Shown: piece after piece, positions 9,294-24,131 of the stretch
Layout: the number at the start of each line of letters is the position of its first letter
Numbering within the stretch: the stretch's first letter is position 1
Origin: a virus
DNA length: 24,131 nucleotides
Direction: 5' to 3' (one strand)
Virus record (IMG/VR): IMGVR_UViG_3300023174_000620
Coordinates: 1-24,131 of that record
Made by a program: the position numbers and the translations under genes
Notes under the pieces: generated by a model
Told to the model about the DNA's origin: nothing
Seen by the model: the letters and a program-made list of their open reading frames with translations, nothing else
Databases searched by the model: none

Positions 9294-10145
9294 TTAGAAT
9301 GAACCGCCGTCGAAGCTGATGCCGTCGATGCTGCCGCCGGTGATGGCGACGTTGTTAGCATTCTGAGTGGACATCGTGCCGAGGGAGGCTGCCGTGCTCT
9401 CGAGGCTCGTGACGCGACCGGAGAGGGCTGAGTCAGCGGAACTACGAGTGGATGCCTCTGCGTCGATGTTGCTTTGCAGGGTGGAGTCCGCTGCGGCACG
9501 TGTGGATGCCTCGCTGGTGACAAGACCGGTGACGGTCGTGATAGCAGAAGCCCGTGTCGATGCCTCCGAATTGATGTTGCTTTGCAGCGTGGAATCCGCG
9601 CTTGTGCGGGCCGACACTTCGGCTGCGAGGGCAGCGTTGTTGCTGGAGACGTAACCGGCAAAAACCGAGTCATTCTCTACGTCAACGCTGTTGATGAGGG
9701 TGACGATTTCCGCGAAGCTGTCTTTGTCAGCCTGGGAAGCAGAGAGGATCGCGTCAACGCGATTCTTCTCGGTCGTGATTTTGGCGTCAAGAGCATTGTC
9801 GCCAGAAACGCGGGAGGAAGCTTCCGCTGAAACGGCTGCGGCTCTGTCGCTGATCTCACTTGCCAGATTGGCGGCTACGAGGCTTTCGGCTGCTGTCGCA
9901 CGTGAAATCTCGCTTGCGAGGTTTGTGGTCAGCGTGCTGTCAGCGGCGATGCGGGCGGATTGCTCGCTCGAAAGCTGGGCGCTGGTGGCGAAGTGGCCTT
10001 CACCGGCGATGACGACCGATGTGGTGCCGTTGCCGATGTAAAGTTTGTTGTCAACGAAGCTGTGTGCGAGTTCGCCGAGGGCGAGGCCGGTAGGGGCGCC
10101 GGAGGAACCTGTCAAACGGCGTTTGATGCGGAGGGTATTTGCCAT
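9294..10145 (-). CDS. Long repeat fibre protein with Mtd-type N-terminus
   Basis: This is a 283-residue protein. Residues 1-45 (LRIKRRLTGSSGAPTGLALG, then ELAHSFVDNKLYIGNG) form the same N-terminal domain as the protein at 8871-9236. Residues 55-250 are a helical Ala/Ser/Thr shaft of near-repeats such as EASTRAAADSTLQSNIDAEA. The C-terminus (NVAITGGSIDGISFDGGSF) is a short beta tip common at fibre ends. It is probably a trimeric coiled-coil fibre or its shaft. The leader CATAAAATAATACC before the ATG resembles that of the capsid gene and lacks a ribosome site. Confidence 0.8.
   Translation of the reverse strand: MANTLRIKRRLTGSSGAPTGLALGELAHSFVDNKLYIGNGTTSVVIAGEGHFATSAQLSSEQSARIAADSTLTTNLASEISRATAAESLVAANLASEISDRAAAVSAEASSRVSGDNALDAKITTEKNRVDAILSASQADKDSFAEIVTLINSVDVENDSVFAGYVSSNNAALAAEVSARTSADSTLQSNINSEASTRASAITTVTGLVTSEASTRAAADSTLQSNIDAEASTRSSADSALSGRVTSLESTAASLGTMSTQNANNVAITGGSIDGISFDGGSF
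9451..9599 (-). repeat. Imperfect 108-base repeats in fibre shaft
   Basis: The segments 9451-9491 and 9559-9599 match closely at a 108-base (36-residue) offset, both containing TTGATGTTGCTTTGCAG-like plus-strand sequence. They encode the STLQSNI shaft units. Confidence 0.65.
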
Positions 10146-16551: not shown

Positions 16552-16700
16552 GGTTTGTGTTGCGTCCAAGTCGCGGTGTCAGAACTAAGGTGGTTGCCAG
16601 CACGCACGGGTTCCACGCACTGGCGGCGAGCAGTTCAGCACTCGCGCTGAGAAATGATATGCCTTCTAAAAATGCAGAGCGGAAGAGGCTCGCGCCGTAA

Positions 16701-16740
16701 TTGACCGAAACCGACAGGAATCGACCGAAATCGACCGAAA
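16701..16740. repeat. Four tandem 10-base repeats (TCGACCGAAA type)
   Basis: The plus strand reads ttgaccgaaa, ccgacaggaa, tcgaccgaaa, tcgaccgaaa in perfect 10-base phase; the last two units are identical. One repeat per helical turn suggests a protein-binding array. It lies in the only sizeable gap of the window (16552-16749), between the packaging and DNA-binding genes and the scaffold gene, where a promoter, operator or packaging site would be plausible. The rest of the gap holds a possible weak -10 (CATATCAT near 16658) and no gene. Confidence 0.7.
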
Positions 16741-23202: not shown

Positions 23203-23783
23203 GCAGCGTCCTCCTGAGTGCGCGGGGACATCTCGACAAGCCTTCGCAGGCGGTGAAAGCACGCCAACGTCATGAGCGCATCCTCCAGCGCGTTGTGCGT
23301 CTTCCCTGAGCGTGAGAATCCAAGCGCCGCCGCAATATGGTCCAGAGACAGGCGAGGCTGCCCATCCTTACCCACCGGCAGGGCAAGAGCGTCCGCCTCG
23401 TAGGCGAGCCACGCTGCCGCTTGTAGGTCCACCATCTTGCCCATAGGCCAAGTCAGGAAATTGCGAGCAAACGCTGCCCGCAGGAAGTCACGGTCGAAGG
23501 CGACATTGCAGCCAGCCATCACCGAGAACCGGCGCGTGCCCAGCCACAAGGCGAGATCCTGCATCACATCCAGCTCCGGCCGCCCGTTTTTTTCCAGAAA
23601 ATCGAGCGTAAAGCCATTCTTCGCCAGCGCCTCCGGCTCACAAAGCCACTCCGGATTTGGCTTAATAATCGCAGTAAACGCTTCGTTATCCAAGGAATCC
23701 ACCGCCGCCACGCTAAGAAGCGCATTCTTCGAGGGATCAAATCCCCCCGTCTCTGTGTCGATGACAATCAATCGCGTCTTCAT
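23199..23783 (-). CDS. DEDDh-family 3'-5' exonuclease
   Basis: This is a 194-residue protein from the ATG at 23783, which overlaps the previous stop by ATGA behind a GGAGG site. The frame is open 12 codons further, but that start is not supported. Motif I is VIDTETGG (Asp9, Glu11), motif II is CNVAFDRDF (Asp97), and motif III is HNALEDAL (His163, Asp168). These form the DEDDh site that holds two metal ions. Like the epsilon proofreading subunit and RNase T, such enzymes trim 3' ends of DNA or RNA. No DNA polymerase is in view, so it could proofread a host or phage polymerase or degrade DNA. Confidence 0.9.
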   Translation of the reverse strand: MKTRLIVIDTETGGFDPSKNALLSVAAVDSLDNEAFTAIIKPNPEWLCEPEALAKNGFTLDFLEKNGRPELDVMQDLALWLGTRRFSVMAGCNVAFDRDFLRAAFARNFLTWPMGKMVDLQAAAWLAYEADALALPVGKDGQPRLSLDHIAAALGFSRSGKTHNALEDALMTLACFHRLRRLVEMSPRTQEDAA

Positions 23784-24010
23784 TTCGCCTCCTTCGGGGG
23801 ATTCGGCAACGGCATCCAATCCAAAACAGCCTCCTCCTCGTGAATGCGAGCCCCAAGAATATTGCGCCAGACATCGCCATCAATGAATCCCGTCCAAACC
23901 TCGCCACCCAGGATGTGGATGATGACCGTCTCGCCATCGTCGGGAAGCGTCACTGAAGCATCCGTCCACTTCATCTCCGTGTCCTCTGTGTCCTCTGTGG
24001 TTAATTTCAT
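23780..24010 (-). CDS. DUF551-like small protein with repeat-derived start
   Basis: This is a 76-residue protein. From the second Met (position 13) it reads MKWTDASVTLPDDGETVIIH and ends DWMPLPNPPKEAK. That is the DUF551-type layout (W..A...P.DGE at the front and WMPLP.PP at the end), common in phages and of unknown function. The first 12 residues (MKLTTEDTEDTE) are encoded by a short tandem repeat that seems to be an insertion (see 23972-24010). A strong site, GGGAGG, precedes the first ATG. Its stop overlaps the exonuclease start (ATGA). Confidence 0.82.
   Translation of the reverse strand: MKLTTEDTEDTEMKWTDASVTLPDDGETVIIHILGGEVWTGFIDGDVWRNILGARIHEEEAVLDWMPLPNPPKEAK
23972..24010 (-). repeat. 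In-frame 36-base insertion of tandem ACACAGAGG units
   Basis: On the minus strand the stretch between the two ATGAA copies (24006-24010 and 23970-23974) is a 31-base insert made of ACACAGAGG-type units. Together with one ATGAA this adds 36 bases, or 12 codons. Deleting insert and one copy leaves GGGAGG, four bases and the ATG of MKWTDAS, an ideal start. Multicopy sequences of this type occur in the genomes of several environmental bacteria. Confidence 0.7.
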
Positions 24011-24131
24011 TTTACCTCCCTCGCGTCAGGAACCGAATAAATCTCAACGCAATCTCCGACTTGGCGCGTAAACGCATTCCTTCCATCAGCTTTTGCGCTT
24101 TTGCCCAAGGCTTCTGCAATGTCGGCAAAAT
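24007..24131 (-). CDS. C-terminal part of an unknown protein (runs off right edge)
   Basis: The last 40 codons of an open frame are visible, ending at a TGA that overlaps the next ATG by 4 bases. The residues (FADIAEALGKSAKADGRNAF, then TRQVGDCVEIYSVPDAREVK) include a helix-like start and a short strand at the end. The overlap pattern and the absence of stops support it. The family cannot be judged from this much. Confidence 0.62.
   Translation of the reverse strand, partial: FADIAEALGKSAKADGRNAFTRQVGDCVEIYSVPDAREVK

Follow-up and report, generated by a model that had tools for sequence, protein, structure and literature searches.

The window analysed here, the whole 24,131-base virus record IMGVR_UViG_3300023174_000620 from IMG/VR, encodes a terminase, an SU10-type major capsid protein, a DnaB helicase and a DnaQ-like exonuclease, and close to its end carries a DUF551-like gene whose first codons are formed by a short tandem array of 9-base units. 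The explanation that we favour, with moderate confidence, is that this array is one copy of a cellular mobile repeat that now serves phages as a joint at which accessory genes can recombine in frame.

On the minus strand, positions 24010 to 23975 read ATGAAATTA followed by ACCACAGAG, GACACAGAG and GACACGGAG, in frame and encoding MKLTTEDTEDTE ahead of the DUF551 gene. The leader ATGAAATTA (24002–24010) consists of the start ATG (24010–24008) and AAATTA, the TTA opening the form found in cellular copies, TTAACCACAGAG. The three units, translated TTEDTEDTE, occupy 23975–24001 (Tandem Repeats Finder detects 2.8 copies at 23975–23999), and a second in-frame ATG follows at 23974. A preliminary description of the window had reported a 36-base in-frame tandem array that adds 12 residues and has ATGAA on both sides, all of which can be read directly in the sequence; the right-hand ATGAA (23970–23974), which includes the second start, was claimed as one copy of a 5-base duplication. 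The window contains no second independent copy within four mismatches of the 19-base core. The array is not a product of chance, because an exact multicopy family exists elsewhere.

As the preliminary description had suggested, the unit is multicopy in environmental microbes. The sequence TTAACCACAGAGGACACAGAGG, from a search of cellular records with the TTAACC part of the pattern, was found in at least 119 stretches of named bacterial and archaeal records, and AACCACAGAGGACACAGAG in at least 119 stretches of viral contigs, both counts being lower bounds from non-random samples and the contigs being viral by prediction. The cellular records listed include Acidobacteria, Planctomycetes, Chloroflexi, Verrucomicrobia, Gemmatimonadetes, Cyanobacteria, Gammaproteobacteria, Spirochaetia and one Methanosarcinaceae archaeon. 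Among the matches listed, and with junctions that have short flanks left out of clustering and placement counts, 116 viral copies form 44 distinct upstream-flank clusters, in 19 of which an ATG or GTG lies no more than 15 bases upstream with an open frame, compared with a fraction of 0.116 expected if the repeat were scattered randomly over these loci (binomial p = 1.3e-7). The listed cellular matches (128 copies, 115 clusters) lie behind a start in only two clusters (null 0.094). Of these 115 cellular clusters, 44 have an inverted partner that lies no more than 250 bases away and faces inward, as do three of the 44 viral ones; an outward-facing partner is present in six and none, respectively. 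Under a looser scheme applied to the same listed matches, 16 viral clusters have the array near a start in the frame that reads LTTEDTE and six near a start in a second open frame, seven have it at the stop of the upstream frame, four and four inside frames, and seven in none of these positions, the last being the case for 77 of 126 cellular copies. The viral genes headed by an array are many and mutually unrelated; the location of the repeat within phage genes with the reading frame preserved, first noted for the window, is seen again at other genes.

Relatives of the DUF551-like gene were sought with a gene-body pattern that made no use of the array. It matched 21 viral contigs, one of which (L072) proved to be a chance match and was dropped, and the array is present in all of the remaining 20; there is thus no empty site (0/20) among relatives found with this pattern, which begins at the inner ATG and which relatives with a different start there would escape. 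When the window is included, 15 of the 21 loci have three units, four have two, one has six and one has eight, and amino-acid-changing variants such as GAC/AAC occur in the arrays. The five bases to the left are ATGAA in all 21, and those to the right are ATGGA in 18 and ATGAA in three. Hence, the array has long been present in this group, its number of units changes with the frame kept, and the duplication is no general mark of it.

In a set of 53 DUF551 relatives, found with search patterns that included the array peptide and displayed with about 126 bases upstream, the array is present in L002–L019, is found in another setting in L038 and L039, and is not displayed in 32 (L020–L037 and L040–L053); L054 represents a 3′ end only. 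As many DUF551 relatives show no array, the extension is derived within DUF551. According to the preliminary description, distant homologues sharing the extension would refute the insertion by showing it to be ancestral, and this refutation holds by half: close relatives share it, but 32 of the 53 show none. In L038 (near 3001) and L039 (near 1106), members of a DUF551-like group, the array precedes a different gene body and was probably acquired separately.

These comparisons bear on two further explanations. A recent, single transposition-like insertion at the DUF551 gene with a 5-base target duplication, as originally proposed, would agree with the ATGAA on both sides of the array in the window. 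However, the array is found in 20 of 20 relatives with two to eight units across the group, so a discrete insertion in the window is not supported, and the putative duplication is retained in only three of 21 loci, the right-hand bases being ATGGA in 18. Nor could a constant duplication be seen by eye in 18 displayed pairs of filled and empty sites at other junctions (e.g. L209/L299 and L296/L054). We therefore discarded a recent one-off insertion, which is very improbable. Still less credible is local slippage that started from a short seed, with only a chance likeness to the dispersed repeat: unit number does differ among DUF551 relatives, but the left part, TTAACCACAGAG, is common to cellular copies from many phyla and to arrays at other phage genes. 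In some of the filled and empty pairs the site is occupied in relatives by short tandem repeats of another sequence, and repeats of the ACTTAAA, GAAGGATGAAG and TTCCGCC types were seen in different relatives at the same phage junctions (L209, L213, L232, L235, L263, L299 and similar loci).

The array coincides with changes in gene content. The 108 distinct viral junctions (of 123) group into 40 upstream and 48 downstream clusters by a clustering that still separates some flanks that are alike (e.g. L232 and L235). Nine of the upstream clusters are joined to two or more downstream clusters, and seven of the downstream clusters to two or more upstream ones. One upstream cluster (19 loci) has eight partners; in five of its loci the array is on a DUF2800 gene itself, and in 14 the array and another gene precede DUF2800. 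The junction ahead of DUF2800 was sampled independently of the array, using as query the DUF2800-type protein (PF10926, PDDEXK_1) encoded at a locus without the array and classifying the best 80 of 108 relatives, which were not dereplicated. The gene upstream of DUF2800 is an AAA_24 gene, which we take to be Sak4-like. In 40 of the 80 the junction is empty, with a 4-base overlap of stop and start, in 18 the array is fused in frame to DUF2800, 20 have the array and a small cargo gene, and two were scored as cargo without an array (L520 and L580). L520 does have an array, with one base changed, leaving L580 as the sole cargo gene without one. Hence, the array is found at the cargo gene start in 21 of 22 cargo loci and, fused to DUF2800, in 18 of the 58 loci without cargo (21/18 versus 1/40, with L520 placed among the array loci; Fisher p = 1e-7). 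The cargo genes belong to eight families, seven of them with the array.

A similar situation is found at the DUF551 gene, where the two upstream contexts, seemingly unrelated, correspond to the presence and absence of a gene designated Y. Four relatives (L002, L014, L016 and L017) have the order P–array–Y–array–DUF551, with Y headed by its own array, and 15 rows have P–array–DUF551, without Y and with one array. L010, too, has a pair of arrays, separated by 421 bases and with an altered Y between them. In a tree built from the downstream kilobase (22 rows, with L004 on a long branch) the presence of Y requires at least two changes, which are forced by well-supported branches. A DnaQ/RNase_T-type exonuclease gene is the downstream neighbour in all 21 rows compared.

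Alternatively, the array might be kept for its effect on the proteins that it heads, as a translation or expression element or as a useful acidic N-terminus rich in Thr, Glu and Asp. In favour of this, the LTTEDTE frame is the main one at starts (16 of 44 viral clusters among the matches listed), and the 3-unit form is the commonest at DUF551 (15 of 21 loci). However, another frame is used in six of the 44 listed clusters, there are sites away from coding starts, and unit number and amino acid sequence both vary, making a functional leader improbable.

The origin of the repeat was sought among the genes near its cellular copies. Though GxxExxY genes had already been suspected from the flanks, a family-blind comparison of nearby frames placed them first of four recurrent groups (six loci, five near the repeat and one far). 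They were confirmed as encoding the PD-(D/E)XK protein described by TIGR04256 and PF13366 (PDDEXK_3). A profile search detected GxxExxY in seven of 119 cellular loci among the matches listed, in six of which it lies 13–90 bases from an exact repeat; the seventh, L114, holds a remnant with arrays of its own. Inverted arrays are found on both sides of the gene in L095, L155, L084, L109 and L114, the downstream array in L123 is in the same direction, not inverted, and L187 is cut. At a further locus, L503, the array directly abuts the ATG of the GxxExxY gene, as it does in the phage gene. GxxExxY is present in 12 of 13 genomes that hold the repeat, six of which were picked for it; six of the other seven have it.

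Inverted arms with a score of 14 or more surround 16 of 26 GxxExxY genes in the repeat-holding genomes (10 of 151 mismatched pairs), though a strict ACCACAGAG pattern is found on both sides in four of the 26. In two phylum-wide samples that were not chosen for the repeat and are made up of the top-scoring members of the family, at roughly one per genome, 17 of 26 (shifted 0/26, mismatched 4/148) and 21 of 26 (shifted 1/26, mismatched 20/148) lie between inverted arms, the high mismatched count in the second sample probably reflecting likeness among the arms. Y1_Tnp genes, the expected positive control, have inverted arms in 10 of 12 (mismatched 0/68), and no inverted arms were found around ParE control genes (0/22). 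Loci that were truncated or had no near stop had been dropped (of 30 each, 4 for GxxExxY, 6 for TIGR02436 and 18 for Y1_Tnp, 8 of 30 for ParE, and 3 of 29 in each phylum-wide sample, from each of which one locus, L311 or L307, was also left out of the arm tests). CACAGAG or CACGGAG is present in at least one arm of 5/16 flanked genes in the repeat-holding genomes and of 9/17 and 13/21 in the phylum-wide samples. Finally, ACCACAGAGGNCACAGAG occurs in 18 of 194 genomes, two of them known beforehand, and all 18 are among the 103 that have GxxExxY. A transposase of the type that accompanies repetitive extragenic palindromic (REP) sequences, the REP-associated tyrosine transposase (RAYT), was considered as the partner of the repeat and rejected; the Y1_Tnp genes carry arms of other kinds, and none of the 12 usable loci has ACCACAGAG-type arms on both sides.

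Two further observations may be noted. Loci L337–L366, for TIGR02436 (a four-helix-bundle protein) in genomes G001–G013, have many different repeat words in their flanking inverted arrays. Genome G302 (L498–L501) has several near-identical copies of a GxxExxY remnant with inverted arms, contained in an insertion sequence (IS)-like repeat of at least about 740 bases, the left end of which was not reached. Short GxxExxY-fragment copies in this genome were considered as deletion derivatives, but the four inspected lie within the longer IS-like repeat and were not used as evidence. In the open literature searched there is no report of the repeat or of arrays around GxxExxY genes; one paper names a GxxExxY-type domain beside a reverse transcriptase (PMC8934634).

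Taken together, the favoured explanation would run as follows. The array would be a copy of a short tandem repeat widely dispersed in environmental prokaryotes, the source of which is probably bacterial elements with inverted arrays around a GxxExxY gene, the phage copies representing single arms descended from them. In a set of contigs from viruses (tailed phages), many of them with genes in common, it would have settled as a permanent N-terminal leader, in frame, at the head of small accessory genes. Such a leader brings with it a start codon, about 30 near-identical bases and an open frame of 9-base units, so that recombination inside it would be possible with the upstream ribosome-binding site, the start and the frame surviving. 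Homologous recombination or template switching within the leader, between two phages or between two copies inside a single phage, could thus exchange or delete the gene behind it, possibly to the benefit of the phage. In the window the array joins gene Y to the DUF551 gene. Unit number would drift through slippage that keeps the frame. More tentatively, and as a proposal that we consider plausible rather than probable, GxxExxY genes with inverted short-period arrays may be an unrecognised class of mobile elements that spans phyla and resembles the REP/RAYT system but is based on a PD-(D/E)XK protein, with single CACAGAG-type arms acquired by phages serving as in-frame docking joints for the capture and shuffling of small accessory genes, in the manner of cassettes but free of an integrase.

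A number of points weigh against this explanation. A pure selection filter could account for the placement of the array: a selfish repeat might land anywhere, with only those copies just behind a start or at a stop surviving where genes are densely packed, and the turnover would then be part of a general mosaicism at gene borders. Other tolerated sites are indeed used (seven of 44 viral clusters, among the matches listed, are at an upstream stop), the repeat is free of stops in two of three frames, and homology ends at gene starts of any kind twice as often as at random positions. However, breaks per shared feature are again twice as frequent at repeats as at other starts: among 132 loci, a homology break falls no more than 25 bases from a shared repeat in 597 of 1511 cases, from another gene start in 1764 of 9270 and from a random position in 1591 of 17525, in a comparison for which the loci were mostly fetched for the repeat and the pairs are non-independent. 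Mosaicism at borders also leaves out of account that, at the DUF2800 junction, 21 of 22 cargo genes have an array and cargo is missing from 40 of the 41 loci without one, and that gene Y is bounded by two arrays. We consider a selfish repeat under a filter unlikely, though it is a substantial alternative.

Only the products of a putative recombination at the array are seen, with no event observed, and the p-values given above overstate independence since the loci are related and were not dereplicated. At the DUF2800 junction, the 18 direct fusions have the same residues after the array and may represent one event, and the cargo gene of L580 sits at a junction without an array. In addition, the right ends of 17 of the 22 cargo genes, L580 included, are within three of 16 bases of GGAGGGCGGGAAATGA; hence, the array is not the only candidate joint, and exchange may involve two joints, one to the left and one to the right of the cargo. 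The link to GxxExxY is also qualified. No GxxExxY gene was detected in the viral loci and the window (1.435 Mb, E≤1), so that carriage of the gene by phages was rejected as an explanation, and the connection to the phage copies is indirect. The exact repeat is absent from 85 of the 103 genomes with GxxExxY, and only about half of the GxxExxY arms belong to its type, 11/16, 8/17 and 8/21 of the flanked genes in the three samples having arms of other types (e.g. CGCAAAG). Genes of another small family, TIGR02436, also lie between inverted arrays in 21 of 24 cases, these arrays being of different kinds and built of 6–8-base repeats (mismatched 1/138).

The remaining features of the window near the array are on the minus strand. 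The DUF551-like gene (23780–24010) encodes 76 aa, with the array as its N-terminal extension, and its match to PF04448 is marginal (23 bits, cut-off 22) and covers residues 21–73, outside the array residues. Gene Y is represented by its 3′ end (24007–24131), open at the end of the window, and its TGA overlaps the array-borne ATG, for which GGAGG at 24015–24019 is the likely ribosome-binding site. The DnaQ/RNase_T-type exonuclease gene (PF00929; 23199–23783) lies directly downstream, its start being placed by an ATGA overlap. Two other imperfect tandem arrays, with periods of 15 and 10 bases, are at 9304–9339 and 16695–16740. The terminase matched five phage records, the top one being Phage C75C1 at 32 % identity, and was also matched in 10 of 194 genomes from the phylum of an Opitutales record (top E-value 5e-70, 39 % identity). 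On these sequence matches, a host among the Verrucomicrobiota is possible for the window virus.

How phages exchange genes while sparing reading frames is an old question, and here one short translated repeat is found at many of the joints. If its association with GxxExxY is causal, this would suggest both a function for a large uncharacterised family of nuclease-like proteins and an origin for a repeat found in many phyla. Dispersed short tandem repeats are also known in cyanobacteria, the short tandemly repeated repetitive (STRR) heptamers, which differ from the array in period and sequence and for which we know of no link to GxxExxY.

REPs and the paired forms called REPINs, together with RAYT (PMC3116915), are likewise short dispersed repeats that form inverted pairs, some of them beside one gene family, and in cells the array is likewise often paired (inward partner in 44 of 115 clusters among the matches listed). 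However, its partner is a PD-(D/E)XK protein (PF13366) rather than a Y1 transposase, its arms are tandem arrays of 8–9-base units where theirs are palindromes, ACCACAGAG and GACACAGAG being non-palindromic, and the phage copies are mostly single (partner in three of 44 listed clusters). The window likewise has a single arm and no terminal inverted repeats of the sort that define miniature inverted-repeat transposable elements (MITEs). Rickettsia palindromic elements (PMC10969869) are similarly dispersed and in frame within many unrelated genes, but are about 150 bp long and found in bacterial genes, whereas the array, a tandem repeat of about 30 bp, sits at the starts of phage genes and coincides with gene exchange. 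The start-associated sequences (SAS) of Cluster K mycobacteriophages (PMC3203893) are also short repeats at many phage gene starts; they lie upstream at the position of the ribosome-binding site and were seldom present in the mycobacterial genomes examined in that study, whereas the array follows the start codon, forms part of the translated protein and occurs commonly in bacteria. Conserved boundary sequences, at which homologous exchange between phage modules was proposed and which were reported missing at most boundaries (PMC3029335), are also similar, as products of gene exchange with the break at a shared sequence are found here, though in this case a single coding repeat that belongs to a cellular repeat family recurs at many joints. 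The array thus acts like a boundary sequence and in cells is somewhat REPIN-like, but it is distinct in its defining features from REP/RAYT, from SAS and, in phage, from MITEs.
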